From positions 1 to 60,116 of the IMG/VR virus record IMGVR_UViG_3300031974_004257: 60,116 bases of DNA; one strand, 5' to 3'. Numbering within the stretch: position 1 is the first letter of the stretch; the number at the start of each line of letters is the position of its first letter. The translations under genes were made by a program, and so were the position numbers. The notes under the pieces were generated by a model that was not told where the DNA came from, ran no database searches, and saw only the letters and a list, made by a program, of their open reading frames with translations. Shown here in pieces: positions 9,266-49,324 of this stretch. This stretch comes from a virus.

Positions 9266-9279
9266 TTTATCCCTCTATC

Positions 9280-23845: not shown

Positions 23846-24250
23846 CTAATTAGTCATTGTTGTAGTTATTATCAACTGATCTGAGCCCGCAAAGGGTAAA
23901 ATATTATACTTAATAACAGTCCTGACATCATTCAGTCCCAAAGTAGGGTCCTCATCGCTCGTTACAAAACTAACTTCCTCTAGGTTGATAGCGGGAATAT
24001 ATCTGTTTGTTTGTTCACTTATTCTTTGTGATACCTGCGAAAAAGTATCTGATGTTACTTGCTCAAACAAGTATCGATGTAATCCCACTCCAAACTCAGG
24101 AATCATGATCCTTTCCCCAGGGGCAGTAAGTATTAACATTTTTAAATTTTGACGTACCGCATCTTTCAGCGTTTTATTAAGCTGATAAGGCCCGTCGGTA
24201 TTACTGTACACCAACGGCAGTCGTGGTGATATGCCTTGTAGTTTACTCAT
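23846..24250 (-). CDS. 25: Baseplate wedge protein, gp25-like (GPW family)
   Basis: 134 residues, as expected for the gp25/GpW lysozyme-like fold. It carries the family signature: LKDAVRQNLKMLILTAPGER followed by IMIPEFGVGLHRYLFEQV, including the conserved PEFG-x-G-L stretch. In T4, gp25 sits at the core bundle of the wedge with gp6 and gp7 and helps start sheath assembly. The gene overlaps the end of the 1962-residue gene by eight bases (ATGAGTAA) and is followed by gp6, a strongly conserved pair in contractile systems. Confidence 0.95.
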   Translation of the reverse strand: MSKLQGISPRLPLVYSNTDGPYQLNKTLKDAVRQNLKMLILTAPGERIMIPEFGVGLHRYLFEQVTSDTFSQVSQRISEQTNRYIPAINLEEVSFVTSDEDPTLGLNDVRTVIKYNILPFAGSDQLIITTTMTN

Positions 24251-34088: not shown

Positions 34089-34421
34089 TTATTCTCCTTT
34101 GTTTTCCTCTAGAAAAAAGAATTCTCTAGAATTAATAGCTTTATCACATATAAAGAGGTCATAGTATGGTTTTCCAACAAAGATACCATTATTTAACGCA
34201 CCCCATTCTTCAAGTTGTTGTTTAGTTAATTCTTCCCAATCTAGACCTGTCTTAGAACCCCTGGCTGTCCAGTAGACAATCTCATGTCCCTTATTGTATA
34301 GTGAGTTTATTTTAGAGATATTTTCTCTAATAGGAACAGCCTGGCTATAATCTTTTGGCTTATCCGCAGAACCATTTGGGTGCTCACATATTGTCTCATC
34401 TATGTCTACATAGATAATCAT
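34089..34421 (-). CDS. HAD-superfamily phosphatase of capsule type (110 aa)
   Basis: A small HAD-fold hydrolase. Motif I is YVDIDETIC (nucleophile Asp and DxDxT), motif II is IVYWTARG, and motif III residues lie in KPYYDLFICDKAI. The short length without a cap domain fits the capsule-biosynthesis phosphatase group (BcbF-like), which act on sugar phosphates. I place the start at the ATG at 34421, overlapping the stop of the methyltransferase gene (TAATG); a longer frame to 34499 would overlap that gene by 79 bases. It closes the sugar cluster. A possible job is removal of phosphate from a sugar precursor; the substrate is unknown. Confidence 0.8.
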   Translation of the reverse strand: MIIYVDIDETICEHPNGSADKPKDYSQAVPIRENISKINSLYNKGHEIVYWTARGSKTGLDWEELTKQQLEEWGALNNGIFVGKPYYDLFICDKAINSREFFFLEENKGE

Positions 34422-35077
34422 TATTTTCCATCCGTATTCATAAAGTGCTGCGGAAGGGGCTTGGTAAATTGTCGTTTTTCTACCCTCTTGGCGAAACAAG
34501 CCATCAGAGCATCATTTGGGATAGTAGGATGATAAGAGCCTGCTTGTTCCTGAAAGTCTAGGCTGTTTGGCGAAGAAAATTTTAAATATGTATTATTAGA
34601 AGAATATTCTTGCCAAATTCTGGATAGTCTAGTCTTAGTGGCACTATACAGTATATTGAACCCATTTGCGTTATAAAAATCTCTAAAAAGAGCGGGGCTC
34701 AAAGAATAAAAACCACGACCATAGAATCCAGAAATATTTGAAGTATGTAAAACTTTACCATCTTCCTTTAGAAGGTTAATGATATTTTCCCAAACAGTGG
34801 CGATATCGAAACAACAATACAATGTGCCTGAATCTATCACCCAATCGTATGACCCCTTTAGGTTTTCTGGGATTTTTTCGTTTAGGTTTATTTTGTGAGT
34901 TGGATTCCCAACCACGTCAAAAGTATGTACCTTGTCAAACCCTAAATCACTACCAAATTTTTCCAGAGAGGAGTAGCCACTTATGTTACAATCTCCAAGA
35001 ATTGCACACGAATTTCCCCCAGGGTTCTCGCTTCTTAATTTCTGTATGAGACTCAAGTCTTCTACTTCAATAGCCAT
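34421..35077 (-). CDS. Class I methyltransferase-like protein (218 aa)
   Basis: 218 residues. CAILGDCNISGYSSLEKFGS is a degenerate motif I region, and DWVIDSGTLYCCFDIATVWE plus LLKEDGKVLHTSN give the later Rossmann strands of SAM-dependent methyltransferases. The glycine-rich loop is not canonical, so activity is uncertain. The ATG has AGGAGA upstream and overlaps the dehydratase gene by 16 bases. Lying in the sugar cluster, it may methylate a sugar or glycan intermediate; this is inferred from context only. Confidence 0.65.
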   Translation of the reverse strand: MAIEVEDLSLIQKLRSENPGGNSCAILGDCNISGYSSLEKFGSDLGFDKVHTFDVVGNPTHKINLNEKIPENLKGSYDWVIDSGTLYCCFDIATVWENIINLLKEDGKVLHTSNISGFYGRGFYSLSPALFRDFYNANGFNILYSATKTRLSRIWQEYSSNNTYLKFSSPNSLDFQEQAGSYHPTIPNDALMACFAKRVEKRQFTKPLPQHFMNTDGK

Positions 35078-35910
35078 GACGACTTTCTCCTTTGATAGAA
35101 ATCATCTATCATTAATTTAATTTGTTCAATATTTGGATTTTCTATCTCAATATTATAAAATAATTCTTCCTCTTGTTTTTCCTGAGAAATGTCATCGTAT
35201 TTTATTTGCTCAAAGTATGAGTGATATTCTCTATACGCCTGATAAAGGTCGTGTAGGCTTACTCTATAACACTTTTCGTTAAAAATATAGTCATCAGTAG
35301 TGCCTAGAGAAGAGGTTATTTTTTCTACCACGTCGCTCACAGGGACAAAATATCTAACCATATTTCTATCGCTTACAGAAATTGGCTTATTTTGAGTTCT
35401 TTGTTTGTCCCAGATATCCAAAACGCTACCCGTTGAGAAAAAGAAGTTAACTCCTTGAAAAACAGAAAATCCATGTTCCAGTAATATTTTCTCTGTTAAA
35501 TATTTTGTAACCCCGTAAACACAAGAAGGGTTAGTAGCCTTGTCTGTACTTATGCCAATTACGTTTTTAACATTATTTTCTATGGCAGCATCGATAATAT
35601 TCTTAGTCCCCAGAACATTCACTTCTATAGCTCGGGTAGGATTATCCTCACATATTCTCACATGCTTCATTGCTGCTGTATGAATTATAAAATCAATACT
35701 ATGATTTTTAACTATTTGACAAATTCGACTTTTAGTATTAGAAATATCAAGGTTATAAACATGTAACCGTTCACTATTTTCAGAAAAAGAAATTTCTTGA
35801 TAACGAGACTCAGAATGAGCTAATCCGACCACTGAATGACCCAATTTCAACAGATGAGAAACTAGTTCTCTCCCTAGGAAACCGGCAGCGCCAGTAATTA
35901 ATATATTCAC
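35062..35910 (-). CDS. Extended SDR, PseB/CapD-like nucleotide-sugar 4,6-dehydratase
   Basis: 282 residues. GAAGFLGRELV near the N-terminus is the NAD(P)-binding loop. AAMKHVRICEDNPTRAIEVN followed by VLGTKNIIDAA, then ISTDKATNPSCVYGVTK, match the polysaccharide-biosynthesis group that includes PseB, FnlA and CapD (UDP-N-acetylglucosamine 4,6-dehydratases); YGVTK carries the Tyr-x-x-x-Lys pair. PseB-type enzymes make the 4-keto-6-deoxy sugar that starts pseudaminic acid and related amino-sugar routes. The start is GTG at 35910, with AAGGAG eight bases upstream. The protein is a little shorter than PseB (about 330 residues). It is a second dehydratase beside the RmlB-like one at 46433. Confidence 0.8.
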   Translation of the reverse strand: MNILITGAAGFLGRELVSHLLKLGHSVVGLAHSESRYQEISFSENSERLHVYNLDISNTKSRICQIVKNHSIDFIIHTAAMKHVRICEDNPTRAIEVNVLGTKNIIDAAIENNVKNVIGISTDKATNPSCVYGVTKYLTEKILLEHGFSVFQGVNFFFSTGSVLDIWDKQRTQNKPISVSDRNMVRYFVPVSDVVEKITSSLGTTDDYIFNEKCYRVSLHDLYQAYREYHSYFEQIKYDDISQEKQEEELFYNIEIENPNIEQIKLMIDDFYQRRKSSWLLK

Positions 35911-35922: not shown

Positions 35923-36672
35923 TTAAAAACAACTAGCTTCTGCTGGAACTAAAAAAGTCTTATTAATCTGATCAAATACTTCAGATGCCGCTTCTTCTTC
36001 AGTATAAAACCCTTCGATACTACTATCCCAAGCGTAATACCCTCGTTGATGCTCCTCAAGATTGATACTAGTGTAACACTGTAATAGCATATCTTTTAGT
36101 TCTGAATTTACCTTATATTGGTAATACTTATGCGGTACTTTTATACCGTATTGGATTCCTTCCAGAGCATGACAGTTCATATCATTAACTAAATGGGTTT
36201 TATGGATTCTTTTTGCCGAGGTTTGATTTGTAGTCATGGCAAAATAAGGAATTGTCATAAAAGAGAAGTAAGAAAAAGGTATATTGTTATTAGTACAATA
36301 TGATCTAACCACACTGTATAACTGTTTATGCTGAACATGGAGATGCTCGTCGCCGTAAAATGAATGAGTAATTATCATATCATAATCTAAGGACCCCAAA
36401 TTAACCAAGCCCTGACTCAGCACTTGTTCAGCAGAATCTATTAATACTCCACCTACTTTCACAAGTTCATTTTGAGTATGATGCCATGAAGAAATATTTA
36501 AAATGTCCATGACTTTCCTGAAAGAGGAAGACCTCTCGGGATCTAATCCCCCAGTCATACACAAAACACTAACATCTACGCCCTCTGTTTGACTAAGCAG
36601 ACTTAAAATGCCACCAATCCACAAAGATTCATCATCAGGATGAGCTACAACAAACAAAACTTTTTTATTCAT
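35923..36672 (-). CDS. PIG-L/LmbE-family deacetylase
   Basis: 249 residues. VVAHPDDESLWIGG at the N-terminus is the zinc-binding AHPDDE motif of the PIG-L/LmbE family; SFYGDEHLHVQHKQLY carries the further metal-binding histidines. Family members remove N-acetyl groups from GlcNAc-type sugars such as GlcNAc-PI, mycothiol and bacillithiol precursors. The gene overlaps the glycosyltransferase before it by eight bases and precedes the PseB-like dehydratase, so an amino sugar in this pathway is a plausible substrate. Substrate not determinable from sequence. Confidence 0.85.
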   Translation of the reverse strand: MNKKVLFVVAHPDDESLWIGGILSLLSQTEGVDVSVLCMTGGLDPERSSSFRKVMDILNISSWHHTQNELVKVGGVLIDSAEQVLSQGLVNLGSLDYDMIITHSFYGDEHLHVQHKQLYSVVRSYCTNNNIPFSYFSFMTIPYFAMTTNQTSAKRIHKTHLVNDMNCHALEGIQYGIKVPHKYYQYKVNSELKDMLLQCYTSINLEEHQRGYYAWDSSIEGFYTEEEAASEVFDQINKTFLVPAEASCF

Positions 36673-37732
36673 GGGTCGGACTCCTTAAATTGTCACAGAA
36701 AACTAAAAACCTGTCCATGTCGTTGACATGACCATGACCATGACGACTAGGGACCCATGGCAAGTTTACATAGTGTGCCGGCACTCTACTAACAAGATCA
36801 TCGGTATTTATCAACTGACCGTCGAAAACTTGACCATGAACAGCATATAGATTGGAAAAATAGTTTTTTAAAAGAAGAAGCGATGACTCTTCTTTTAACA
36901 ATTCTGCTTGTGGAGTCTTGTCCGGCTCAAAACTTTGATAATTCTCGACAGCATATATGAGTGACTTATGAGCCTCATCATATGAATCAAACAGCACAGA
37001 GTTTTTAGGCGTAAGAAAATCTCTTGCGCTACCATGTTGATTTGACCAAATAACTGTAGGCAGACCACACAACATTCCCTCAGGTATTACTCCTGGGAAT
37101 CCTTCCATTTCAGAAAACAAGGTATTAACTTTTGATGACTGGTAGAAGAAGGCTAATTGTTTTTTACTTAACCCTTTAAACTCTAAATCTTTACCTAGAC
37201 GAAGTAAGGTAAACATATCCCTTTCCTTGTCGCTGAAGTGGTTGTAGTATACATCGGCAATGTCGATAAAATGATCTTGCTCTGTCTCTTCCTCTCTTGA
37301 AGCACATACCAGTAAAATATTATACTCGTAACCTAAATCATATATTTTTTTAACTTCCCTCATAAACGTTTGAAGCTTTTTAACATTTCCGTTCCTAGAG
37401 ACGTTAATAATATCCCAATACTTTTGAGCCTTTTCGTTCTTATGGAACTTTGAAGAAGTAAAATTACCACTAGCTAAAGGTATATGGAACATGTTAGGGT
37501 TACGATCGCTAATATCTACTACAGATGGTAAACCCATATAAAATGAATATGGGGCTGTAAGATTAGAACCCTTTGAAAAGCCACCATAATGAACTCCAAC
37601 AAAATAGTCTTCTGTAATCTTGTGTAGTTTTTCTCGGGCGTGTATGTTTGTGGAAATCCAATTCGCCTCAAGATGAGTCAAAACAATTATGCCCTTACTC
37701 GTCTCGGTAGGATGTTTAAATATGTGTGCCAT
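36665..37732 (-). CDS. GT4-like glycosyltransferase (355 aa)
   Basis: 355 residues with a GT-B layout. The C-terminal half has FSEMEGFPGVIPEGMLCGLP, the EGFP-x-x-x-x-EGM-x-C-G-x-P motif of retaining family 4 transferases that holds the nucleotide sugar, followed by VIWSNQHGSARDFL. The N-terminal half is less typical. No membrane segment. GAGGTC precedes the ATG. It lies between the PhyH-like and PIG-L genes in the sugar cluster. Donor and acceptor cannot be read from the sequence. Confidence 0.8.
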   Translation of the reverse strand: MAHIFKHPTETSKGIIVLTHLEANWISTNIHAREKLHKITEDYFVGVHYGGFSKGSNLTAPYSFYMGLPSVVDISDRNPNMFHIPLASGNFTSSKFHKNEKAQKYWDIINVSRNGNVKKLQTFMREVKKIYDLGYEYNILLVCASREEETEQDHFIDIADVYYNHFSDKERDMFTLLRLGKDLEFKGLSKKQLAFFYQSSKVNTLFSEMEGFPGVIPEGMLCGLPTVIWSNQHGSARDFLTPKNSVLFDSYDEAHKSLIYAVENYQSFEPDKTPQAELLKEESSLLLLKNYFSNLYAVHGQVFDGQLINTDDLVSRVPAHYVNLPWVPSRHGHGHVNDMDRFLVFCDNLRSPTHE

Positions 37733-37745: not shown

Positions 37746-38468
37746 TTAATGTGGTCTGCAGTGTAACAGAACCACCTTTCTTTGTTTATTTTCTTCTAGT
37801 ATAATACTACCATAATGCAGAATGTCTGTATGTACAATAATGAGGTCACCAATATTTCCACCATAAGTTACAGCATCCTCCTGGCAATACTTAGGGCTTT
37901 CATCGTAATCTGATGGTTGATGCCTATATCCATTATTCCAACCTGACATATCTTGGATGTTCATTTTTTCTGTTCTATATCTCTTGCCCTCATCTCGGCT
38001 GCCAGGTATAGCATGAAAAGCCCCATTAGTTTTATCTGTATCTGTTAGATAAAGAATAAACTTAAGCGATTCATATGGATCAAAATGTAACAAAGCATTA
38101 CGAGGATACTTTTCTTTATCAGTAATCGGGTTGTACTCGGTTGACATAAATATCTGCATACCGTAAGTATTTTGACCCAGACATCCATTAGTAATATTTA
38201 TCAAATCCTGATTTTGAAAAGTACTATAAATCTGTGGGATATTTGAGTAGGCTGCTGGTTGAACTCTTAAATGTTTGCCCAACTCATAAGATCCTGGGGG
38301 TTCAAGATCTAAACTATTAGCCCTATTCAAGTAGGCTTGACTTCTATCAGGTATATGCGAAAAGATAGTGTCAAACTCATCTACCACTGGTTTCTTGTTT
38401 TTTAGGAAGTCTTTTACAACAAATATTCCTGTTTTATTTACCTCTTCTATGATTTGTTGTACATCCAT
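37746..38468 (-). CDS. PhyH-like Fe(II)/2-oxoglutarate dioxygenase
   Basis: 240 residues. LLHFDPYESLKFILYLTDTD supplies the H-x-D part of the iron triad, GAFHAIPGSRDEG is the typical strand after it, and VHTDILHYGS gives the distal His; RKVVLLHCRPH holds an Arg suited to bind 2-oxoglutarate. This is the pattern of phytanoyl-CoA dioxygenase-like enzymes, which hydroxylate small molecules and sugars. It begins one base after the stop of the NeuB-like gene, with GGAG upstream. A hydroxylation of a sugar in this cluster is inferred; the substrate is unknown. Confidence 0.8.
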   Translation of the reverse strand: MDVQQIIEEVNKTGIFVVKDFLKNKKPVVDEFDTIFSHIPDRSQAYLNRANSLDLEPPGSYELGKHLRVQPAAYSNIPQIYSTFQNQDLINITNGCLGQNTYGMQIFMSTEYNPITDKEKYPRNALLHFDPYESLKFILYLTDTDKTNGAFHAIPGSRDEGKRYRTEKMNIQDMSGWNNGYRHQPSDYDESPKYCQEDAVTYGGNIGDLIIVHTDILHYGSIILEENKQRKVVLLHCRPH

Positions 38469-38469: not shown

Positions 38470-39933
38470 TTACTGCTCCAATTTACACTTTACTTTTCTC
38501 TCGTCTACAGACTTTCGTAGAATTGTGGGATCAGTATAAATAGAGTCGCCCTTATGGTGAGTTGTTGAAACCTCCTCGATGACACAACCACCTCTGGTTT
38601 TAAAAGCATGAGGGACATTCCTAGCAATCAAAAATGGTTCTCCGGGCTTTAGTTCAATCACCTTACCTTTAATTAAGAGCAGACAATCACCATGAATTAA
38701 TTCAAATGTTTCCTCTTTCCGAATATGGTAGTGTTCTGGGTGTTTTTGATTTGGCAACATAACAATAATCTTTTTACAGTATTCTCTGTTTACCTTGTCA
38801 ATAATGAAAGCACCATAGTTTTCAAAATTCTCGATACCGTAATGGCAGGATATTTCACATTTATCTCTAGGAGTAATATGAACACTTGTTTTTTCTAAGA
38901 TATTCTTGACGGCATCACAAATTGGCTTTACTTGATCGGTCATGGTGAAGTTAAAATAACTTTCCATCAATGACTGGTTGGTGAGCACTTCTTCAGTTAC
39001 TGTAGACCCCAACACAGAATCAATTTGTGATACATCTAGTTGCCCCTTTTGGCATGGCATTGCGTAAAAAAGATCTTCCTCAGAAATTGTATGTCCAACA
39101 GTTAAATCTTTGTTCACATAAATTCCTCTTTTTAGATTTCTTAGAGCCTCTTTTTGTGTGGTGGATTTTCCCTCATACGCCTCTTGAAACCTAAGAAGAC
39201 TTTTTATCATTTCCTCATATTGGTCTTTTGTACATGAATATGCGTTTAGACTAATTGAATCAGTTTCTTTGCCTATGTGCTTTTCAAAAATAGTACACCC
39301 CATAGCACTAGCATAAGGAGCAAGTGATTCCTCATCTGGCGACTCATGAGTAGAAAAACCAATCTCAATGTCAGGAAAATTCTCCTTCAAGACATTAATC
39401 CTAGCTAGATCTGCGTGTTTAGATGATGTAGGATAATCAGCAACACAGTGCATGAAAGCAAAATCTCTATTGTTTGATTTAAAAAGATTATAGACCCTTT
39501 GAAGGTTAGGAATATCTGCTCCAGCAGTAGAGAAGATTATTTTTCTTTGAACTTTAGCCACAGCCCTAAGTAAAGGCCAGTCATCAGATGAGCAGCTAGC
39601 AATCTTTAAAATATCTACATCCAGTTCATCAAAAAGACTTAATGACTCGTTGTCAAAGGGAGTAGCAACGGTTTTCATGCCCTTGGTCTTAGCATAATTT
39701 AAGATTTCTCTAAAGTCTTCCACTTCCAGACGAGTCTCATTAAACCTTTTGACATATTTCAAATCAGACTGTTTATAGTCTGGGTGTATAAACGTGTCTA
39801 GGTTTCTAAATTGAACTTTCAGTCCTACGTTTAAATCATATTCTTTTGTTACTTGCTCAAAGTCATCAATAATGGCTTTAGCATGACTAACACTACCTTG
39901 GTGGTTGTTTGCCATTTCTAAGATAAAAAACAT
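38470..39933 (-). CDS. neuB: NeuB-like nonulosonate synthase fused to a C-terminal cupin
   Basis: 487 residues. The first 270 are an NeuB-type TIM barrel: EMANNHQGSVSHA, VGLKVQF, VDILKIASCSSDDWPLL, FMHCVADYPTS, IGFSTHESPDEES and IFEKHIG all align with motifs of N-acetylneuraminate, legionaminate and pseudaminate synthases, which condense phosphoenolpyruvate with an N-acyl hexosamine. Residues about 270-330 (RGIYVNKDLTVGHTISEEDL) are the SAF antifreeze-like domain. The remaining 150 residues are an added cupin (HPEHYHIRKEETFELIHGDC; PGEPFLIARNVPHAF) like those of D-lyxose isomerases. The usual GFSDH is GFSTH here. The ATG overlaps the stop of the NeuA-like gene (TAATG). The exact sugar (Neu, Leg, Pse) is unresolved. 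Confidence 0.88.
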   Translation of the reverse strand: MFFILEMANNHQGSVSHAKAIIDDFEQVTKEYDLNVGLKVQFRNLDTFIHPDYKQSDLKYVKRFNETRLEVEDFREILNYAKTKGMKTVATPFDNESLSLFDELDVDILKIASCSSDDWPLLRAVAKVQRKIIFSTAGADIPNLQRVYNLFKSNNRDFAFMHCVADYPTSSKHADLARINVLKENFPDIEIGFSTHESPDEESLAPYASAMGCTIFEKHIGKETDSISLNAYSCTKDQYEEMIKSLLRFQEAYEGKSTTQKEALRNLKRGIYVNKDLTVGHTISEEDLFYAMPCQKGQLDVSQIDSVLGSTVTEEVLTNQSLMESYFNFTMTDQVKPICDAVKNILEKTSVHITPRDKCEISCHYGIENFENYGAFIIDKVNREYCKKIIVMLPNQKHPEHYHIRKEETFELIHGDCLLLIKGKVIELKPGEPFLIARNVPHAFKTRGGCVIEEVSTTHHKGDSIYTDPTILRKSVDERKVKCKLEQ

Positions 39934-40613
39934 TATAAGTTCTCCAGTTTTATTTTAGCTTGTAATAGGTCATCATTTGTATCAATATCAATGTTATAGT
40001 CTGTATCCATATGATACGGTATACACTTATCTCCAACCATACACCTCTTATTCATTATAGTACTGGTCTTTACAATATCAATACACGCATTTTGAGAATA
40101 TGCTGGGCGAAGTATTTGACGAGGGAGTGAATGAAAGTTACCCCCTCCCTTAACTACTGGCTCTAGTAGACCTTCTGGATCTACAAACCATGTCTTAAAT
40201 GGTGAATTAGATGCTTTAGTTATTGACCTTAAAGAGTCTACTTTCTCATAGTTTGTTTCAAATAATTCTACAGCCTCTTCAATAATGATTGAATTGATTT
40301 GCGGTGAAGTTGCTCGAAGGTGAATGACATAATCATATCCCTCGTGCTGAGAAACAAAATCAATAAAACAATCTATATCGGTCGATAAATCTCCCGCTAA
40401 CTCAACAGGTCTATTGTGAATCTGAGCACCGTAGGACTTAGAGACTTTTGCTATTTCTTCATCCTCTGTAGAGACCCACACATTTTCATATCCAGCCTGA
40501 AAAGCTGCCTCTATGGGATAAGATATAAGTGGCTTGCTATTTATTTTAATTAGGTTTTTTCGGGGAATGCTCTTGCTCCCACCCCTAGCTAAAATAACAA
40601 CACATTTTTTCAT
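39933..40613 (-). CDS. neuA: NeuA-like CMP-nonulosonate cytidylyltransferase
   Basis: 226 residues, the normal length for the family. VVILARGGSKSIPRKNLIKI is the signature nucleotide-binding loop (ARGGSK-x-x-x-x-K-N) of CMP-sialic acid synthetases and of PseF/LegF; SKPLISYPIEAA, VWVSTEDEEIAK, IHLRATSP and DTDYNIDIDT follow in the expected order. The enzyme activates a nonulosonic acid with CTP. It is preceded by the only sizeable gap (57 bases) of the sugar cluster, which carries a possible late promoter, and is followed with overlap by the NeuB-like gene. Together with the GT29 gene upstream it forms a synthase, activator and transferase set. Confidence 0.92.
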   Translation of the reverse strand: MKKCVVILARGGSKSIPRKNLIKINSKPLISYPIEAAFQAGYENVWVSTEDEEIAKVSKSYGAQIHNRPVELAGDLSTDIDCFIDFVSQHEGYDYVIHLRATSPQINSIIIEEAVELFETNYEKVDSLRSITKASNSPFKTWFVDPEGLLEPVVKGGGNFHSLPRQILRPAYSQNACIDIVKTSTIMNKRCMVGDKCIPYHMDTDYNIDIDTNDDLLQAKIKLENL

Positions 40614-40626
40614 TGTCTAAGACCAA

Positions 40627-40634
40627 TACTTATA
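40627..40634 (-). promoter_or_regulatory. Candidate late promoter (TATAAGTA)
   Basis: On the minus strand TATAAGTA lies 14 bases upstream of the ATG of the NeuA-like gene, in the 57-base space after the GT29 gene. It differs at one base from the T4 late consensus TATAAATA. It is the only clear intergenic space within the sugar cluster. The distance to the ATG leaves a very short leader and no clear ribosome binding site, so this call is tentative. Confidence 0.25.
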
Positions 40635-40670
40635 TCACATTGTAGCGTGTCTCTATGGAAGTGTTTAGTA

Positions 40671-41273
40671 TTATTCAAAAAGAGATATTTTACCCTGTAG
40701 GTGTAGTTCCCGGACTATTCTTTCTTCATCATCTTTACGATGATTTTGTTGGTAAGGTATTACACTCTCAAAGTAATGAAATTTTGAAGGGTCTTGAAAA
40801 AAAGAAAAACCATAACAACTAACTTTGTCGAAATTTTCTAAAGCATACTGTATGCCTAGATAACCCATTGTTGGATCACCTCCAAGTATATTCCTATGGG
40901 CTGTCAACCATTCATCGGATATGTGCTTTATCTTATTTCCCTTGTTAAGAGTCATATCTCTATAAAGTTCGACACTATCATTAAAGTTTGACAAAGATTT
41001 CAACCAAATGGTTTCATTTGTTAATTCTCTAACATACTGATTATTATACTCTGGGAAAAACTGTGTGTGGTTTGCTAAGTGATTCGGGTCAATGGCGCAC
41101 AATATGGGATGACAATTCATAAACCTAATGTTTCTTTTTGACCCTACATGTTTTTCATAACCCTCAGTCTCAGCAATATTAAACCTTATTACCACGTCGT
41201 GGGAATCAATGTCATTACCAAACTCTTTTTCTAGTATAATTGGAGAATTTCCAACCACAGCACAACTAATCAT
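40671..41273 (-). CDS. GT29-family sialyltransferase-like protein
   Basis: 200 residues. The first 53 match sialylmotif L of animal sialyltransferases: SCAVVGNSPIILEKEFGNDI, DSHDVVIRFNIAETEGYEKH, VGSKRNIRFMN. Sialylmotif S follows: GGDPTMGYLGIQYALENFDK then VSCYGFSF. HYFE and NHRKDDEER supply the H-Y/motif III-like site and the H-x(4)-E of the very short motif. These motifs bind the CMP-sialic acid donor and acceptor and carry the catalytic His. There is no membrane anchor, unlike the Golgi enzymes, so it is likely cytoplasmic. The ATG overlaps the ketoisomerase stop by ATGA. GT29 is mostly eukaryotic with few bacterial and viral members. Adjacent NeuA/NeuB-like genes give it a donor. Confidence 0.88.
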   Translation of the reverse strand: MISCAVVGNSPIILEKEFGNDIDSHDVVIRFNIAETEGYEKHVGSKRNIRFMNCHPILCAIDPNHLANHTQFFPEYNNQYVRELTNETIWLKSLSNFNDSVELYRDMTLNKGNKIKHISDEWLTAHRNILGGDPTMGYLGIQYALENFDKVSCYGFSFFQDPSKFHYFESVIPYQQNHRKDDEERIVRELHLQGKISLFE

Positions 41274-41653
41274 TTTTGACCCTTTAAAATGTTTTTATAC
41301 TCTTCATAGTCTCTAATATAATTTGATTCATCATATAAAGCATCAGCAAATACCAACAAACAAGTATTAGCCTCTAAATATTCCAACGTCAGCCATTCCA
41401 ACTCTTTTTGGTAATACGTGTCTCCCTGTTCCATAGTGAACTTTTCTATGCCACTTTTATCTTCCTTTGAAACATTAACAGAGCCATTTAAGCAAATTAA
41501 AAAGTGTTCCTCTCCTTGGTGGGCATGTCTACCTCGGATATCATTAGCTTGGTTGTTTTTAACAAAAAAAGACCTCTTAGGATTAAACGGTATTTGAGAT
41601 ATGTCAAAGGGTATCAAAAATCCTGTAGGGTTTTTCTTAACTTCTAATCGCAT
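41270..41653 (-). CDS. FdtA/QdtA-like sugar 3,4-ketoisomerase (cupin)
   Basis: 127 residues. RGRHAHQGEEHFLICLNGSV followed by EWLTLEYLEANTCLLVFADA and YDESNYIRDYEEY align closely with FdtA, QdtA and WxcM-type cupins, including the His pair and the invariant YDE-x-x-YIRDY-x-E/D-F/Y tail. These enzymes turn dTDP-4-keto-6-deoxyglucose into the 3-keto isomer, the substrate of a 3-aminotransferase. I chose the ATG at 41653 with GAGAGGG upstream; a longer frame begins at a TTG 21 bases earlier. It overlaps the DegT aminotransferase gene, its usual pathway partner, and the GT29 gene by ATGA. Confidence 0.88.
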   Translation of the reverse strand: MRLEVKKNPTGFLIPFDISQIPFNPKRSFFVKNNQANDIRGRHAHQGEEHFLICLNGSVNVSKEDKSGIEKFTMEQGDTYYQKELEWLTLEYLEANTCLLVFADALYDESNYIRDYEEYKNILKGQK

Positions 41654-42563
41654 ATTTTTGTACCCTCTCGACAACAGTGTTTAATTCTTCTTCGGTCAAC
41701 ATTTCATGAAAAGGCAGTGAAACAGTTGTCTTACCTTCAAGTGTAGATTTTGGTAAGTTTCGCAACTTGGTGTTATAAACTGGATTTTCATGTAGAGCAG
41801 CATAGTGGATACCTGTCTGAATGTCTACTTGTTTCATATCCTCTATGAACTTATCTCTATTTTTTACATTTATGCGATACAAATGGTTACTAGTATTTTG
41901 AGCCCCCAAACGGTCGTTATAAAAGTCCCTTATCTGTAAAAGTTTATTGTTTTTATCATCTAGTTTCTCTAGATTATTCAATGCGATTTGAGATTGAACC
42001 GAATTCATGTACATCTTGTAGCCGGGAAATTTTATCTTCCTGTCCCAGTTGTCTTTAGAAAACGTCATACCATTAAGAGTTGACTCTTTAAATCTTTGTA
42101 TTTTAGACCAGTCATTGGAGACTATGATACCCCCATCACACGATCCAATAGGCTTTGTTGGGTAAAAGCTAAAAATCATCAAGTCTTTGTCATCTGCTTC
42201 GTTCTTAAACTGATCCCGTTGTACCTTTTGGGCTGAATCTATTACTTTATAATCTTCGAACTGATGAAGAATATATGAATCCCCAACCCACTCAGTATTG
42301 TCTGTAAAGTTTACTTTGTTTCCGCCAGTGATCAAGCCATTACAAACGACCGGAGGGATGACAGAGGGGACATTAATCGTCATACCTTTATTAAGGAAAG
42401 CCAAAAATATAGCATTAGTGGCACTACTCACAGAACAAGCGTACTTTGCCCCTACATATTCACAAAATTTAGATTCAAATTCTTCTACCACTTCACCATG
42501 TAGTAAGTGAGAGAAATTAGAGGTATCAATAACATAAGAGGGTATGTTAAATAACTGAATCAT
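41637..42563 (-). CDS. DegT/DnrJ/EryC1-family PLP sugar aminotransferase
   Basis: 308 residues from the ATG at 42563, which overlaps the TGA of the upstream gene (ATGA). LLHGEVVEEFESKFCEYVGA with ACSVSSATNAIFLAF is the N-terminal family signature, and IFSFYPTKPIGSCDGGIIVS holds the PLP-binding Lys and the GG pair. Members put an amino group on keto sugars of nucleotide sugars. Because it overlaps an FdtA/QdtA-like ketoisomerase and an RmlB-like dehydratase lies upstream, an FdtB/QdtB-type 3-amination of a dTDP sugar is the best guess; PseC/LegC-type 4-amination on the PseB product is the alternative. It is shorter than usual (about 360-380 residues). Confidence 0.85.
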   Translation of the reverse strand: MIQLFNIPSYVIDTSNFSHLLHGEVVEEFESKFCEYVGAKYACSVSSATNAIFLAFLNKGMTINVPSVIPPVVCNGLITGGNKVNFTDNTEWVGDSYILHQFEDYKVIDSAQKVQRDQFKNEADDKDLMIFSFYPTKPIGSCDGGIIVSNDWSKIQRFKESTLNGMTFSKDNWDRKIKFPGYKMYMNSVQSQIALNNLEKLDDKNNKLLQIRDFYNDRLGAQNTSNHLYRINVKNRDKFIEDMKQVDIQTGIHYAALHENPVYNTKLRNLPKSTLEGKTTVSLPFHEMLTEEELNTVVERVQKYAIRS

Positions 42564-43351
42564 TGCTTTAGTCCCATGTAGCAAATCCATGTGTACGAGG
42601 GTGCTTCGGTTAAATATACAGGATATTTATCGCTTGTATTCATCTCTAGTAGTGGTTCTGGCGAGGCGTAAATGTCATCGTCCCACACATCGCCCCAACG
42701 AGTAGTTGGTATCTTATATATCGGAGGCATCTCCTGATAGACATCAACCCTATCGTCAAATCTTTGATAGTCAAAGTAAGAGTATTTGTGATGCTCCCGA
42801 CGACCAGCATAATCCATCACATAGTCTCGACATGCTAAAATTTTCTTAGGGGAAAATGTATCACCCTGAGTGGAGGGATAATTATCCTCATATAAAATAT
42901 GTTTAACACCTAGAGAGTGAACATACTCCAACCGATCCAAAAAGTTCTGGTGATCATCAAGAAACAAAACTATATCTTCTCTTGTAATTCCTTCATTTTC
43001 TTCCATCTCTGAAAACAGCTTTTGCCAATCATATGATGTCATATCTTTATCAAGATACAGTGCTTTATCGCTTTTATACACGAGGTGTCTGAATGTTATA
43101 TCAATTGAGATTATTTTTGCTTCTGGAACTGCTTGTTCGATTATCCAGGTTCCTAGTCCTTTCCATACTCCGCTCTCGATAACTACCTTAGGTTTCAATT
43201 GCCGAAGAGCATACCAAGTATTAAACAAGTGCGGTGACTTCATGCCCCCTTCATTGTCATTAACAGGTCTTTTTTTATAGATTTCGTAAAACTCTTCTAA
43301 GGAGTTTTTTACTTGTTCTTTATTACTATAATCAATATAGTCGCTCCTCAT
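42560..43351 (-). CDS. Class I methyltransferase-like protein (263 aa)
   Basis: 263 residues. KPKVVIESGVWKGLGTWIIE with PEAKIISIDITF is the glycine-rich motif I and acidic strand 2 of a Rossmann methyltransferase; IVLFLDDHQNFLDRL and KHILYEDNYPST are consistent with the later strands. The family resembles small sugar or cephalosporin-hydroxylase-like (CmcI) methyltransferases, but I cannot place it exactly. Its start overlaps the preceding methyltransferase gene (TAATG). It may methylate the sugar made by the adjacent enzymes. Confidence 0.65.
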   Translation of the reverse strand: MRSDYIDYSNKEQVKNSLEEFYEIYKKRPVNDNEGGMKSPHLFNTWYALRQLKPKVVIESGVWKGLGTWIIEQAVPEAKIISIDITFRHLVYKSDKALYLDKDMTSYDWQKLFSEMEENEGITREDIVLFLDDHQNFLDRLEYVHSLGVKHILYEDNYPSTQGDTFSPKKILACRDYVMDYAGRREHHKYSYFDYQRFDDRVDVYQEMPPIYKIPTTRWGDVWDDDIYASPEPLLEMNTSDKYPVYLTEAPSYTWICYMGLKQ

Positions 43352-43950
43352 TATTGGTCCTTTCGAAATAGAAATGTTCTGTGATTACTTTCGTATGGGA
43401 AAGACCTAATAGCTCGCACAACACTAAAACCATTGAATTTAAATGTGTTTACCATGTCTTCATAGTTTATGACTGTCTTTACTGTGGGTAGGTTACCATA
43501 TGTAATGTAATTGTCAAGGTGAGATTCGCCACGTGTCACCTCTTGACGATGAATCAAGACATCACCAGTAGCGTGAATCAATATTTTATTAAGGATAGTG
43601 TACCACTCAGGCACCTCACTCAGGAAACTATTCATCAAGACCAAATCATGATCTTTAACAAATTCAAAACTAGTTTCATTGGCATCGAATCCTATGTAAT
43701 TTTGTGAAGGGCTAGAAACTTTGGAAACGTCATTAATGATATGTGGTAAATCAGCGCCCGTATATTCCCACTCAGGATAAGTTAGTGCTACTTCCGCAGC
43801 ACCACACCCAATATCAAGCAATGTTTTTCCGTCTGAAAGTTTAACACATTCGTCTAGGGCGGTAAAGTGATCTGATTCTTTCAGTGGCTTAAACCCAGCG
43901 TTCAACATTGAATTGGGTAGCTGCTCCTCATCATACCATGCTGTTTTCAT
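43351..43950 (-). CDS. Class I SAM-dependent methyltransferase (199 aa)
   Basis: 199 residues. KTLLDIGCGAAEVALTYPEW gives a canonical motif I (D-I-G-C-G), YTGADLP motif II, and DLVLMNSFLSEVPEWYTILN motif IV/V. No membrane segment. The ATG overlaps the stop of the glycosyltransferase gene (ATGA) and its stop overlaps the next start. The substrate is not visible; a sugar or glycan intermediate is likely by position. Confidence 0.8.
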   Translation of the reverse strand: MKTAWYDEEQLPNSMLNAGFKPLKESDHFTALDECVKLSDGKTLLDIGCGAAEVALTYPEWEYTGADLPHIINDVSKVSSPSQNYIGFDANETSFEFVKDHDLVLMNSFLSEVPEWYTILNKILIHATGDVLIHRQEVTRGESHLDNYITYGNLPTVKTVINYEDMVNTFKFNGFSVVRAIRSFPYESNHRTFLFRKDQ

Positions 43951-44837
43951 TGGTTTTCCATCTCCCTTTTAATTCTAGCCATTAGTGCCTCTATATTCTT
44001 CTCTATAGCAGCAGGGTGTTGCCCATCAAAATCAGCGGTATAACATTCACCTCGGTACTCCGGCTTAAACTCGTGAACTCCTTGAAATTGTTTTTCTATC
44101 TGATACCTTTCAAAAGGTTCAGCGTTCATCCACGGAACATAAACCCTATTGTAATAATCATCTATACACTTAGACATGCTAACTTTAGCTTTATAATATT
44201 CTATCTTATTCTTAACTTGTTTTGGGAAGACATACGAATAATGATACATCTCTATACCAGTAGTATTATAAAGTGTCTCGCTGTCAATATGTTTTCTAGA
44301 GATGTTTAAGTCTTCTGGGTATCTTATAGTTGGTGGGCGGTGCGTCAACCAAGTACTACCTGGAGTTACTCTGAATATTCGCAAGAAGTTATCTCTGTTA
44401 AGCTCGAAACCAGTAAGATAGTTGTCAAACCCTCCATAGAAACTTTTACTACGAACCCCTACACTTGTGGGCTGTACTTCTTGAAGAAATGATATCATTT
44501 TTTCTATATCTGACTGGAGATAAAGTTCATCGCTATCAAGATTCCACAAGTAATCAATGTCATCTCTAAGATGAGTCAAATAAGCATTACACTGTTCATC
44601 TTTTTCGCTATATTGCCCCCTAACAATATGTATTTTATTGTCGGGGTCAGGAAAATTATTTAAAATCTCATTTGTTCGATCAGTGGAGGTGGTTCTTCCT
44701 CTATCTTGCCAATATTTAACTGGACCCTCAGCTATTAATATCTGAGTCGCATAAGGATAGACTTGTTCTAAGCACTCTTGTAGAACATAATCTCCTTCAA
44801 ATACTATCATCCCGAAGGCTATTTTTGGTTTTCTCAT
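43947..44837 (-). CDS. GT2-like glycosyltransferase (296 aa)
   Basis: From the ATG at 44837 (AAGGA five bases upstream) the protein has 296 residues; a longer frame to 44855 lacks this signal. IAFGMIVFEGDYVLQECLEQ is the GT-A first strand and helix, and LWNLDSDELYLQSDIEKM carries the DSD that would hold the metal and nucleotide sugar. This fits the GT2-like group that includes the beta-1,4-N-acetylglucosaminyltransferase-type enzymes. It overlaps the upstream GT8-like gene by 41 bases. Donor and acceptor unknown. Confidence 0.75.
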   Translation of the reverse strand: MRKPKIAFGMIVFEGDYVLQECLEQVYPYATQILIAEGPVKYWQDRGRTTSTDRTNEILNNFPDPDNKIHIVRGQYSEKDEQCNAYLTHLRDDIDYLWNLDSDELYLQSDIEKMISFLQEVQPTSVGVRSKSFYGGFDNYLTGFELNRDNFLRIFRVTPGSTWLTHRPPTIRYPEDLNISRKHIDSETLYNTTGIEMYHYSYVFPKQVKNKIEYYKAKVSMSKCIDDYYNRVYVPWMNAEPFERYQIEKQFQGVHEFKPEYRGECYTADFDGQHPAAIEKNIEALMARIKREMENQ

Positions 44838-45729
44838 GTGCTTCCTTAAGATCATTATAATACTGATCGGCTATATGTTTAATAAAGTGTCTTTGAACTT
44901 CTGTTCCCATAGGAGCACTCACAAATCCATGGCGGGGTGCTAGTTGATAAGAGTTGTTTTTGTAATCTGGCTTAAAATTAGAAAAATGACAATACAGAAG
45001 ATCTTGAGTGTAATTACTCCATCTTATTTTTCCATCAGTGGTATACTCATGGAAAATAAAATTCCAAGGTGCTAGATGACCTATATCTGAATCTAGTATC
45101 TTTACTTCCTCTGTGAGTTCTTCGAATACTTCCAAATATTTTTGATCTCCACAGGTGCCGTGTGTTTTTGCGTATTCATTGTCGGGCTTTAGTAGGCAAT
45201 TTTTCCACCACGTTAATACCTTGTATCCTTCAAAGTTGTTTTTAAAATAAACAATCCCAACATTATATTTGCCATTCACTGGGTTGTACGAGCACCTGTG
45301 CTCGACTATACCTACACTACATTCTTCTACTGACCTTCTGAGGTTTGATAGATCACGAAAGAAGTATATGTCTGAGTCGATATATAATACATCATCTACT
45401 GGTAAGTTCTCCATACACCACCAAGTAAAATATGGGGCAAGAGACCACATAAACTGTAGTCTAGTAGCATCACCAGTATTGTTTGCTGTATTTATCAATG
45501 CCTCTCTTGAGGGAGGGTTTGATTGCGCCTGCCTTAGAACAGGGTCTGCTTCTAGTAGGTCAGCTAGTTTATATTTCTTAATATTAGGTTCATTACATTT
45601 TTCAAATATTTGATCATCCACACACAATAGATGTAAGGTATAATCACTCTGATGACGCTTCAGTGAAGCATTTAGAGCTAATACTTTTTCTGTGAAGTTG
45701 TTGTCCGCTAAGGTACAAAAATTATTCAT
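44797..45729 (-). CDS. GT8-like nucleotide-diphospho-sugar transferase (310 aa)
   Basis: 310 residues from the ATG at 45729; the frame can be extended three codons to a TTG. The first strand is FCTLADNNFTEKVLALNASL, and VDDVLYIDSDIYFFRDL holds the D-x-D metal site of GT-A transferases. YNVGIVYFKNNFEGYKVLTW followed by CGDQKYLEVF matches the GT8/nucleotide-diphospho-sugar transferase group, where the D-Q pair lies at the active site. No membrane anchor. It lies between a methyltransferase and a GT2-like enzyme in the sugar cluster. Confidence 0.78.
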   Translation of the reverse strand: MNNFCTLADNNFTEKVLALNASLKRHQSDYTLHLLCVDDQIFEKCNEPNIKKYKLADLLEADPVLRQAQSNPPSREALINTANNTGDATRLQFMWSLAPYFTWWCMENLPVDDVLYIDSDIYFFRDLSNLRRSVEECSVGIVEHRCSYNPVNGKYNVGIVYFKNNFEGYKVLTWWKNCLLKPDNEYAKTHGTCGDQKYLEVFEELTEEVKILDSDIGHLAPWNFIFHEYTTDGKIRWSNYTQDLLYCHFSNFKPDYKNNSYQLAPRHGFVSAPMGTEVQRHFIKHIADQYYNDLKEAHEKTKNSLRDDSI

Positions 45730-45746
45730 AATCTTCAATTCTTAGT

Positions 45747-46421
45747 TCAGGTTTTCAAAATAACACAAATAGCATCCCAAATATGAACCGACAGAGTGTT
45801 GCTGGTACTGTCGTCAACGCTAGTTATTATATCTTTCAAAAAATTATCAAAGTCTTTTCTTCTGTTATTAAAATCCATATTTGGACTACCCTCAATAGCA
45901 CGGCTCTTTGTCTTAGTTGGATAATCACGCTCTGGCAAATGAAATCCATAACTATTATAAAGATCTTCTATAATGTAAACCCCTTTTTCTTCTAAACTAT
46001 CCCACAAAAAAGAAAGAGAATCTATAATATCACTATTGATATGTGACCCATCATCAATTATAATATCAAACTTATCACGTCCTGTTTTTAGTTTACAGGA
46101 TTCTAGTACTTTGTCAATAGTAGGTTTTTGCTCTTGCGGTCCAATAATAATACTTACCCGGTCATCCTGGCATGAAAGGCAGTCTCTATCTATGTCGATG
46201 CCAAATATATTAGCCTTCGGAAAATACTCTTTCCAAACAGATAACGAAGGACCCTTTCTCACTCCAATCTCTAAAATATTAATCTCCTGATCCCTAAAGC
46301 GATTAAAATAGAGATCATATACATCTAAATAATTAAAATCTTTGGTGCGGTTATCTGTCGCCTTGTCTGTGCCATAATGTTTGGCTAGTACTGATAGTTC
46401 ATTTTTCTTGTTTGGATACAT
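45747..46421 (-). CDS. Sugar O-methyltransferase, MycE/macrocin type (224 aa)
   Basis: 224 residues. ELSVLAKHYGTDKA and NYLDVYDLYFNRFRDQEINI, LEIGVRKGPSLSVWKEYFPK, ANIFGIDIDRDC and KFDIIIDDGSHINSDIIDSL are the typical blocks of the metal-dependent O-methyltransferases that act on sugars of macrolides (MycE-like). The D-D-G-S-H stretch would bind the metal. AAGGAAAA precedes the ATG. It follows the RmlB-like gene, so methylation of a 6-deoxy sugar is plausible but unproven. Confidence 0.8.
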   Translation of the reverse strand: MYPNKKNELSVLAKHYGTDKATDNRTKDFNYLDVYDLYFNRFRDQEINILEIGVRKGPSLSVWKEYFPKANIFGIDIDRDCLSCQDDRVSIIIGPQEQKPTIDKVLESCKLKTGRDKFDIIIDDGSHINSDIIDSLSFLWDSLEEKGVYIIEDLYNSYGFHLPERDYPTKTKSRAIEGSPNMDFNNRRKDFDNFLKDIITSVDDSTSNTLSVHIWDAICVILKT

Positions 46422-46432: not shown

Positions 46433-47326
46433 TTATACAAATTTAAGTATTCCTTGATTTTTAGGTATTTTAAATCCTGTTTCTGTGAGTTTTTCGGAAT
46501 CTATAGAATATCTAATGTCCTGACCAAGTCTATTTTTTACAAATTTTACGTGTGGTTTAATATTATCAATGCCGTACCAGGAGCAAATTTGCTCGACCAC
46601 CTCTAGATTTGTCAAATGATTATCAGCAGCGATATTAAATACTTCATTTTTATACTCGTTCATTATCAGGTGATAGATCGCCGAAACATTATCCTCAACC
46701 CTGACCCAGTCTCTTATATAAGAACCATCGCCATGTATAGGAATTTTAGTATTATTCTCTAAACACTCTATGATTTTAGGGATCAATTTTTCAGAGTATT
46801 GTCGTGATCCATAATTATTAGAACTACGTGTTATCAAATAGTCTAGACCATATGTCTTATTGTGGGAAAATACAAACATTTCCCCTGCTGCTTTACTTGC
46901 TGAATAGGGGTTACTCGGAAGAAGCATATCCTTTTCATAGAACTTTTTGTCTCGGGTGTCGCCATAAACCTCGTCAGTACTTATCTGTACAAACAAAGGA
47001 GGATTGTAGACTTTTGCTCTGACAAGCTCTAGCAAATTAAATACCCCCCTAGCATTACTGTCAAAGAAAACTTTGGGCGATTCAATAGAATTATCTACAT
47101 GAGATTCGGCAGCAAAATTAACAACAACATCACACGGAGGTAGATGTGTCATAGTAGATATATCTTGCTCAATCAATTGATAGTTTTCATTCTCATCCCA
47201 AGGGACTGTCTTGTTGGAGGCATAAGTCAACTTATCAATATCTATAACAGTGTGCCCTTTCGATAGAACTAGTTCTACAAAATGGCTGCCGATAAAACCT
47301 CGACCACCGGTTACTACAAATTTCAT
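46433..47326 (-). CDS. rmlB: RmlB-like dTDP-glucose 4,6-dehydratase
   Basis: 297 residues. VVTGGRGFIGSHFVELVL is the NAD-binding loop, NFAAESHVDNSIESP the RmlB active-site strand, ISTDEVYGDT the T-D-E triad, and YSASKAAGEMFV the Tyr-x-x-x-Lys pair; SSNNYGSRQYSEKLIPKII and GDGSYIRDWVRVEDN complete the family set. It removes water from dTDP-glucose to give the 4-keto-6-deoxy sugar. It is about 50 residues shorter than E. coli RmlB, mainly at the C-terminus. No RmlA is in the window, so dTDP-glucose would come from the host or from genes outside. GGGGT lies before the ATG. Confidence 0.93.
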   Translation of the reverse strand: MKFVVTGGRGFIGSHFVELVLSKGHTVIDIDKLTYASNKTVPWDENENYQLIEQDISTMTHLPPCDVVVNFAAESHVDNSIESPKVFFDSNARGVFNLLELVRAKVYNPPLFVQISTDEVYGDTRDKKFYEKDMLLPSNPYSASKAAGEMFVFSHNKTYGLDYLITRSSNNYGSRQYSEKLIPKIIECLENNTKIPIHGDGSYIRDWVRVEDNVSAIYHLIMNEYKNEVFNIAADNHLTNLEVVEQICSWYGIDNIKPHVKFVKNRLGQDIRYSIDSEKLTETGFKIPKNQGILKFV

Positions 47327-47329: not shown

Positions 47330-49324
47330 TTACCCCTGTAAGAAAACCTTTTGGTATTTCTTGAAAATTGAAAATTCTTCCTTTTGTTTCTTTTTTTCAG
47401 TCTCTTTATTTGTTGAGATACCTTTAGGATTTAGATAATACAAGCCTAGGAGCTTGTTTAGACAAAAGAACTTAGACCCACCAAAGGCAGCCCTCAGCCA
47501 CATCTCCCAGTCACCAGCACTAAAATATTCATCATTGAAAGTACCGTGCTTATCGTGAAGGGATTTTCGCCACATAGGATTATTGTGAGGAGAATTTCCT
47601 TTAAGAAGTGTCTCTTTTCCAGTAAAGGCAAATGGAGTAAGTTTACGCCAAGTAGGATCTTGATCTTCGAATCTTTGATTAGGCTTATCCGTTATATAAC
47701 AATCGGCATAAACTAGATCTACATCCTCTTTGCTAAAAAGTGTTTTAGCGTGATATTCCAATGAATCGATACTCTTGCGGTCATCAAGATTAGCGTTTGT
47801 TAAAAACTCCCCTGTTGATAGTTCAATTCCCATATTCCAGACTCCATAGATTCCAGGGTCCTTGTCTAGTCTTTTATACACAATATTGTCTGGGAATTTC
47901 TTAAGGTATTGGTTTATAACTTCTTCTTCATTCCCTGGAGAATTAGCATTAATCAGAATTAGTTCGCACTTTTCTTTGAAAATTGTCTGGCGGGTTATAT
48001 CCTCCAGGAAACCTTCTATGTGATCATCACCGTCATAAACAGATGTGATAATAGATATTTTTGGCAACAGTCCTGTGTCCACGTCTTTATAATCAATCAA
48101 GGAAAGGTTGTTCTTTATAAAAGATTGATACTTTTCATGTACTTTAGAAATGTTTTGATTTTCACGAAGATATGATGATAACACACTAGTATCAAAGTCA
48201 AGGTATCTTCCCGGTTTTCTAATTTGCCGAAGTGCTTTCTTAAATGATTCTTCTTTAGGGTAAGCCCACTCACATTCTGGGGTGATTAAGTTTGGCATCA
48301 AGTGATAGGGTTTTACCTTGTCAATCGTATAGTCAACTTTGATAAAGTGACTCTTTATCTTTTTCTTTCCACTTTTAGATGTTACGGGAACTCTTAAAAA
48401 ATCCAAATGTCCAGACCAATTAGTAGTTATAATTGGTATATTATTACAGGCAGCCTGAAATAGAGGTATCCCAAAGCCTTCTCCGTGTGTTGTTGAAATA
48501 TAACAATCAATTACTTCGGGGTCGTAGAGTGACTGTACTTGAGAGTCACTCATGCTCCCGTGTACTAGGTAAACTTTACATTTACGATCTTTAGCTACTG
48601 TGTCTAGCAAATTAATAAGCCTGTCCCTGGTGGCGTGATAGTCCAAAGTGCTGTTATTTTGTAAATGTGTCTTAATAACTAAACCCACCTCAGGGTCATC
48701 CTTAAATTCGGATAAAAACCATTGAATCATCAAATCAAAGTTTTTACGAGGTGCCATCTGTAGAACAGTTAGAAAGTTAAACTTAGTACTAAGCTGTATT
48801 TGAGAGTAAATATCTTCCTTATCTTCTTGCCTATATCCATGAGGAATTACATCGATGGGAGTCGTTATCTTAGCCCCATCGGCACCCTTAGTATTTTTAA
48901 GATTTTTCTTAGCGTGCTCAGAGCATACCAGTATACGGTTCATAGAATTACATTTAGAGATCCACGCTTCAGGGGCAAAAGTTGTTTCTAGGGCGGCAGT
49001 GACTCCTATGTCATTTTCTGACATTCTTTCAAATTCGTTCGGCGGCTTGACCTGATATGTAGTGTCGTACAATCCAGCAAGGTTTACATTGCCTTGCGGG
49101 TCAACATGTCGGCGGTATAATTCTTGTGTCTTATTTATGTACTTCTTGTACTTTTGAAAATACTTGAGGCTCCGGCTGGATGCTGCCCACTGTGTTTCTT
49201 GAATGTAAAGATCTATCTGATCTCCCATGTTTATAAAAGCGTCTGCTAGTGTTCTCGCATGTTCGCTATAACCAGAAATATTACATACCGGTCCCACAAT
49301 AAGGACTCTTGGAGTTGTTGTCAT
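47330..49324 (-). CDS. Bimodular GT4-GT2 glycosyltransferase (664 aa)
   Basis: Residues 1 to about 390 are a GT-B/GT4-type transferase: VLIVGPVCNISGYSEHARTL at the start, VLQMAPRKNFDLMIQWFLSE, and STTHGEGFGIPLFQAACNNI with the conserved E-G-F-G-x-P. Residues from about 405 are a GT-A/GT2 domain: PKISIITSVYDGDDHIEGFL, a D-P-G-I-Y-G-V-W-N segment, LTNANLDDRKSIDSLEYHAK (an N-L-D-D in the D-x-D place) and FSAGDWEMWLRAAFGG. Two transferases in one chain usually add successive sugars to one glycan. The ATG overlaps the upstream gene by ATGA. Confidence 0.85.
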   Translation of the reverse strand: MTTTPRVLIVGPVCNISGYSEHARTLADAFINMGDQIDLYIQETQWAASSRSLKYFQKYKKYINKTQELYRRHVDPQGNVNLAGLYDTTYQVKPPNEFERMSENDIGVTAALETTFAPEAWISKCNSMNRILVCSEHAKKNLKNTKGADGAKITTPIDVIPHGYRQEDKEDIYSQIQLSTKFNFLTVLQMAPRKNFDLMIQWFLSEFKDDPEVGLVIKTHLQNNSTLDYHATRDRLINLLDTVAKDRKCKVYLVHGSMSDSQVQSLYDPEVIDCYISTTHGEGFGIPLFQAACNNIPIITTNWSGHLDFLRVPVTSKSGKKKIKSHFIKVDYTIDKVKPYHLMPNLITPECEWAYPKEESFKKALRQIRKPGRYLDFDTSVLSSYLRENQNISKVHEKYQSFIKNNLSLIDYKDVDTGLLPKISIITSVYDGDDHIEGFLEDITRQTIFKEKCELILINANSPGNEEEVINQYLKKFPDNIVYKRLDKDPGIYGVWNMGIELSTGEFLTNANLDDRKSIDSLEYHAKTLFSKEDVDLVYADCYITDKPNQRFEDQDPTWRKLTPFAFTGKETLLKGNSPHNNPMWRKSLHDKHGTFNDEYFSAGDWEMWLRAAFGGSKFFCLNKLLGLYYLNPKGISTNKETEKKKQKEEFSIFKKYQKVFLQG

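Follow-up and report, generated by a model that had tools for sequence, protein, structure and literature searches.

Animal sialylation is the work of family GT29, in whose animal members the histidine of motif VS serves as the catalytic base. Prokaryotic GT29 proteins are, to our knowledge, almost untested. In 2018 bacterial members were reported from Alpha-, Gamma- and Epsilonproteobacteria, which keep the sialylmotifs and have neither a membrane anchor nor the conserved disulfide (PMC5811610); they are chromosomal and functionally uncharacterised there, and the words phage and virus are absent from the main text of that paper. GT29 enzymes are also encoded by viruses whose hosts are animals, namely myxoma virus, as cited in PMC9614988, and squirrelpox virus and a chelonid herpesvirus, both represented in the viral structure library BFVD. 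Finally, UniProt and BFVD hold an entry that was automatically annotated as 'Glycosyl transferase family 29 [uncultured Caudovirales phage]' (A0A6J5NLG3). The notion that GT29 is mainly eukaryotic, which had accompanied a first, sequence-only reading of the DNA described here, is therefore outdated.

The closest described gene sets are the bacterial nonulosonic acid (Neu/Leg/Pse) islands and the flagellin and LPS glycosylation islands. With these the present locus, which lies on a 60,116-base IMG/VR virus contig (the window, meaning the whole stretch analysed), has in common NeuB, NeuA, an aminotransferase, a dehydratase and a transferase. It differs from them in that it belongs to a tailed phage, that its transferase is of family GT29 instead of GT42, GT52 or GT80, and that no NeuC/PseG was found. 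The open literature, a coverage outside of which most subscription journals fall, yielded no relevant report on phage GT29 or phage sialic acid synthesis, and we found no description of a phage NeuB-NeuA-GT29 module or of an exchange of its donor pair; the protein as such adds one more member to an established family.

The GT29 gene and its product

The plus strand of positions 40671-41273 is full of stop codons; the gene is a 200-aa open frame on the minus strand, whose start codon lies within four bases, ATGA (41270-41273), that it shares with the gene upstream. Its product, a GT29 sialyltransferase-family protein consisting of the catalytic core only, begins with MISCAVVGNSPIILEKEFGNDIDSHDVVIRFN and thus directly with sialylmotif L. 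All four motifs claimed in the sequence-only reading were found: motif L (SCAVVGNSPIILEKEFGNDIDSHDVVIRFN) occupies residues 3-32, motif S (DPTMGYLGIQYALENFDKVSCYGFSF) residues 133-158 and motif III (HYFE) residues 166-169, while motif VS is H178-x4-E183. Pfam recognises a single family in the protein, PF00777 Glyco_transf_29 (E=3.2e-32, 112.4 bits against a cut-off of 23), in a match that spans positions 55-271 of the 272 of the profile and hence nearly the entire C-terminal four fifths. Searching PDB with phmmer at E<=1 returned sialyltransferases only (ST3Gal1, ST6GalNAc2, ST6Gal1 and ST8SiaIII), and searches of PHROGs and NCBIfam gave no match. The 52 homologues that were aligned all match PF00777 and no other family; their profile retrieves ST3Gal1 (2.6e-30), ST6Gal1, ST8SiaIII and ST6GalNAc2, followed weakly by the GT42 enzyme CstII.

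Six residues (G19, I22, D26, R30, G44 and G137) are invariant in the 52 homologues, and H178 is conserved in 51, N32 in 47 and E183 in 45 of them. The phmmer alignment pairs H178 with the motif VS histidine of ST6GalNAc2, and the family profile puts the same column on that of ST3Gal1. Two findings had been named beforehand as speaking against membership, a profile placement outside GT29 and an unaligned catalytic histidine; both were checked and neither occurred. The protein is 72% identical to that of a sister phage, with pN 0.19 as against pS 0.87, and we therefore regard it as the product of a real gene under purifying selection.

The AlphaFold2 model, computed from an alignment of 48 sequences without the rows of a 484-kb phage, has a pLDDT of 92.6 and a pTM of 0.90. 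The top 30 Foldseek matches in PDB are all animal GT29 chains (best E 2.8e-11, TM up to 0.74 on the query), after which come Campylobacter GT42 CstII and CstI at 1e-5 to 1e-3 and then noise. In BFVD the model matches herpesvirus and poxvirus sialyltransferases, A0A6J5NLG3 (TM 0.60 on the query) and the unnamed entry A0A516M7H5 (TM 0.87 on the query), the enzymes of eukaryotic viruses being structurally farther from it than the latter. From these matches it follows that the GT29 assignment is secure and that databases already contain some phage GT29. Filing the protein under GT42, whose members are distant fold relatives, was rejected, as the GT29 matches are far stronger in both the profile and the Foldseek searches. 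As judged from sequence profile and predicted fold, then, the open frame encodes a bona fide GT29 protein, for which family and motifs predict transfer from CMP-sialic acid.

With the animal enzymes (ST3Gal1, 2wnb; ST6GalNAc2, 6apl; ST8SiaIII, 5bo6; ST6Gal1, 4js1) the protein shares the fold, the four sialylmotifs and the aligned catalytic histidine. It is distinguished from them by its length of 200 aa against about 300, by the absence of the N-terminal membrane anchor and stem of Golgi-type GT29, and by an incomplete disulfide pair, in which the motif L cysteine is present (C4) and the motif S cysteine is replaced by Phe148. The expectation of a 200-residue protein without a membrane anchor is borne out, as hydrophobic segments are absent (the 19-residue Kyte-Doolittle mean peaks at 0.86). 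Kept motifs, a missing anchor and a missing conserved disulfide are likewise the features of the bacterial GT29 proteins, from which the present copy differs in being that of a phage.

The sugar cassette, its relatives and the exchange of the donor pair

The gene is part of a cassette in operon-like order that occupies the interval between 51 and 34 kb, with all its genes on the minus strand and many of them overlapping. NeuA- and NeuB-like neighbours had been noted from the sequence, and profile searches confirm both. The first (39933-40613, 226 aa) is a NeuA/PseF-like CMP-ulosonate cytidylyltransferase with an RGGSKxIPRKN nucleotide-binding motif (PF02348, E=8.6e-23), whose best NCBIfam model is TIGR03584 PseF (1.3e-34, under the equivalog cut-off) and which is also matched by Kdo cytidylyltransferase models. 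The second (38470-39933, 487 aa) is of an unusual type that combines a NeuB-family synthase with a C-terminal cupin (PF03102, E=1.3e-38; Cupin_2, 2e-8), and it matches PseI (2.5e-39) and NeuB (2.1e-37), both under cut-off. Its cupin part is also weakly D-lyxose isomerase-like, and among the loci examined a full-length NeuB-cupin counterpart occurs only in viral contig L015 (about 53-54% identity).

Upstream, an FdtA/WxcM-like cupin resembling sugar 3,4-ketoisomerases (41270-41674; PF05523, E=4e-25) shares the four-base overlap with the GT29 start and is preceded by a DegT-family sugar aminotransferase (41637-42590; PF01041, E=1.4e-36; best NCBIfam model PseC, under cut-off). Beyond these lie a methyltransferase-like protein (43351-43950; Methyltransf_2, 9e-4), a GT2 glycosyltransferase (43947-44855; PF00535, 8.4e-9), a GT8-like protein (44797-45738; PF01501, 0.0028, under cut-off), an RmlB-like dTDP-glucose 4,6-dehydratase (46433-47326; TIGR01181, 9.6e-89, under cut-off), a two-domain GT4/GT2 glycosyltransferase (47330-49324; PF00535, 1.2e-12; PF00534, 2.2e-7) and a GT4 glycosyltransferase (49321-50580; PF00534, 5.2e-13). 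A further methyltransferase-like gene at 45747-46421 is missing at the matching place in the sister contig L001 and has a 37% relative in the Bdellovibrionales contig L091. The RmlB-like, FdtA-like and DegT genes (41270-42590 and 46433-47326) would fit a dTDP-3-amino-3,6-dideoxyhexose route and hence a second sugar in the cassette.

On the other side of the NeuB-like gene follow a PhyH-like dioxygenase (37746-38468; PF05721, 4.4e-10) with 44% identity to one in the Bdellovibrionales cassette, a GT4-type glycosyltransferase (36665-37732; PF00534, 3.5e-9), a PIG-L-type deacetylase (35923-36672; PF02585, 3.2e-9), a PseB-like nucleotide-sugar dehydratase/epimerase (35062-35910; PF02719, 7.2e-46; TIGR03589, 3.1e-36, under cut-off), a protein without Pfam match that looks methyltransferase-like by eye (34421-35077; identity 73% to L001 and 40% to the Bdellovibrionales cassette) and a small HAD-type phosphatase-like protein of 110 aa (34089-34421; TIGR01689, 1e-4). 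The last recurs in many GT29 loci, has a weak match to the capsule biosynthesis phosphatase EcbF/BcbF and is a candidate sugar or ulosonate phosphatase. Among the cassette proteins scanned, none has a Pfam match to a hexosamine 2-epimerase or UDP-sugar hydrolase of the NeuC/PseG type; such an enzyme could be encoded elsewhere in the incomplete genome or by the host. No such epimerase having been seen, we infer rather than observe that the phage makes or redirects a donor of the CMP-sialic-acid-like kind, as the sequence-only reading had proposed.

Compared bin by bin with the sister contig L001, the cassette shows 63-80% DNA identity, which falls to 47-58% with large gaps precisely over NeuA and NeuB (about 38470-40650). 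At the protein level the neighbours are 66-87% and the GT29 proteins 72% identical, as opposed to 36% for NeuA (over 77 aa) and 28% for NeuB. The NeuB of the window, of the cupin type, is about 53-54% identical to that of L015; the short-type NeuB of L001 is 68-70% identical to those of the viral contigs L013 and L014 and nearer to Neu than to Pse models. By sequence comparison, therefore, the NeuA-NeuB pair is swapped as one block between sister phages, from different sources and with GT29 kept. The replacement is sharp, window positions 38470-40650 corresponding to 8593-10056 of L001, and the other shared neighbours are conserved along with GT29. No other observation speaks as strongly for a joint function of pair and transferase as this exchange with the transferase retained, and it also makes it possible that the sugars of the two phages differ. 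Whether NeuB-NeuA-GT29 forms a self-contained, swappable sialylation module of tailed phages, in which the transferase is kept and the donor pair exchanged so that virions or host come to bear a different ulosonic acid, in the manner of bacterial serotype switching, is a tentative idea that we consider possible but would not yet favour.

How general is the association? IMG/VR holds at least 79 GT29 loci, and phages thus carry many diverse GT29 proteins. In the GT29 tree, which does not include the enzymes of eukaryotic viruses (myxoma, squirrelpox, chelonid herpesvirus), the window groups with L001, L013, L014, L015, L016 and the Bdellovibrionales contig (support 98/96), and all seven members of this clade, that is the window, five other viral contigs and L091, carry a NeuA and a NeuB gene at no more than 10 kb from GT29. 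After dereplication, 53 GT29 loci could be compared with 58 epimerase loci taken as control and gathered with an alignment query. Both genes are nearby in 8 of the former and 1 of the latter (p=0.013), NeuA in 17 and 5 (p=0.0035) and NeuB in 9 and 3 (p=0.066). Within the dereplicated GT29 loci the pair is present in 5/5 members of the window clade and in 3/48 of the rest, the p-value of 2e-5 being optimistic on account of shared descent and of the use of clade members as seeds for the NeuA and NeuB profiles. Farther away in the family, the majority of viral GT29 loci lack NeuA or NeuB within 10 kb, so that a GT29 gene does not entail the full trio. Of 50,697 annotated phage records, one contains GT29 and three contain the window-type NeuB; the single GT29 record, a 484-kb phage, is among these three.

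At least five GT29 genes were counted in this phage (LR756508.1; locus L003, 8516-13337). Three of these follow one another directly in tandem, and a NeuB gene separates this run from the first GT29 of the cluster. A 50-kb viral contig (G059, locus L039) has nine GT29 matches. A single scan of bacterial genome contigs returned one GT29 locus, and 2 of 46 genomes of the phylum concerned contain GT29. Recent capture of the gene from a eukaryote is unsupported, as the two animal sequences used both fall outside the window clade; phage GT29 is a gene pool to weigh in the origin of eukaryotic GT29.

Predicted pathway, acceptor and alternatives

Since NeuA and NeuB lie near GT29 in every member of the clade and the pair has been replaced with GT29 kept, the phage probably makes and attaches its own CMP-activated, sialic-acid-like ulosonic sugar. 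In the proposed pathway the NeuB-like synthase would condense a host- or cassette-derived hexosamine with PEP to an ulosonic acid, the NeuA-like enzyme would load it with CMP, and GT29 would, through His178, transfer it with inversion onto a glycan started by the neighbouring GT2-, GT4- and GT8-type enzymes. This acceptor would be assembled cytoplasmically, with a structural protein of the phage (tail or capsid) as its carrier. We assign a probability of about 0.72 to the reading as a whole, in which a soluble phage GT29 transfers the cassette-made CMP-ulosonate onto a cytoplasmic glycan. If so, phages would have a testable route for coating virions or hosts with sialic-acid-like sugars, and their GT29 proteins would be a source of small soluble enzymes for glycochemistry.

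The location of the acceptor on a phage structural protein is our best guess and is drawn by analogy. Glycosylation of flagellin in the cytoplasm is known. A second analogy is the glycosylation of mycobacteriophage virions, as cited in PMC12619734. The main alternative is that the same enzyme and donor act on host LPS or capsule and recoat the infected cell, for instance to block superinfection or to lose less progeny on debris. Modification of surface glycans by phages is well known (restated in PMC12619734), and a related set of genes (GT29, NeuA, NeuB fused to a TIM barrel, PIG-L, PhyH and GT4) on the contig L091 of a Bdellovibrionales MAG (1161-10364) lies on alternating strands, like bacterial surface-sugar islands. 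Against this, we found no membrane-like segment in the cassette proteins and no flippase, polymerase or lipid-linked initiating enzyme (lipid-carrier transferase) in the cassette, so that export would rely wholly on host machinery. For this reason we favour the cytoplasmic acceptor and consider recoating of the host doubtful, if conceivable.

A somewhat less probable alternative is that the GT29 fold uses another donor, such as CMP-Kdo or a different CMP-ulosonate, and that the protein is a sialyltransferase by fold only. The NeuB and NeuA proteins are equally distant from sialic and pseudaminic models, the Kdo matches of NeuA fit this reading too, and the type of donor pair differs between sister phages with GT29 unchanged in place. 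Then again, the adjoining synthase belongs to the NeuB family (PF03102) and is not a Kdo synthase, and sialylmotifs L and S, which bind CMP, are preserved; both facts count against this alternative. Naming the sugar as Neu5Ac, Leg or Pse was given up, every model being under cut-off; none of NeuB, NeuA and DegT reaches equivalog level for the enzymes of Neu5Ac or of pseudaminic acid, so that a different ulosonic acid may be the one made.

It is improbable that the protein is a degenerate or inactive GT29 relative retained for some different function, sugar binding for example: its mere 200 aa and the loss of the stem and N-terminal region of the animal enzymes could suggest as much, but all motif residues and the catalytic histidine are retained under strong purifying selection, and other viral members are of similar length. 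Bacterial contamination, that is a polysaccharide island misfiled as virus, could be suspected because IMG/VR contigs can be misassigned and the cassette has bacterial relatives, but it is highly improbable and is rejected in view of gp6, gp25 and phage-type PhoH on the window contig, the recurrence of cassette plus gp6 on the sister contig G001, and the 484-kb phage genome with GT29 beside NeuB.

The phage context thus stands, the T4-type baseplate wedge genes gp6 (22032-23828, minus strand; phrog_219, 5.5e-17) and gp25 (23846-24250) identifying the contig as that of a tailed phage; an endolysin-like protein is encoded as well. The nearest relatives of its gp6 are those of Microcystis phage Mel-JY01 and of Flavobacterium phages (~31%), and identity to that of LR756508.1 is ~30%. 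Two very long open frames (10212-16772 and 24243-30131; 2186 and 1962 aa) have no Pfam match; their products are probably virion proteins and possible targets of glycosylation.
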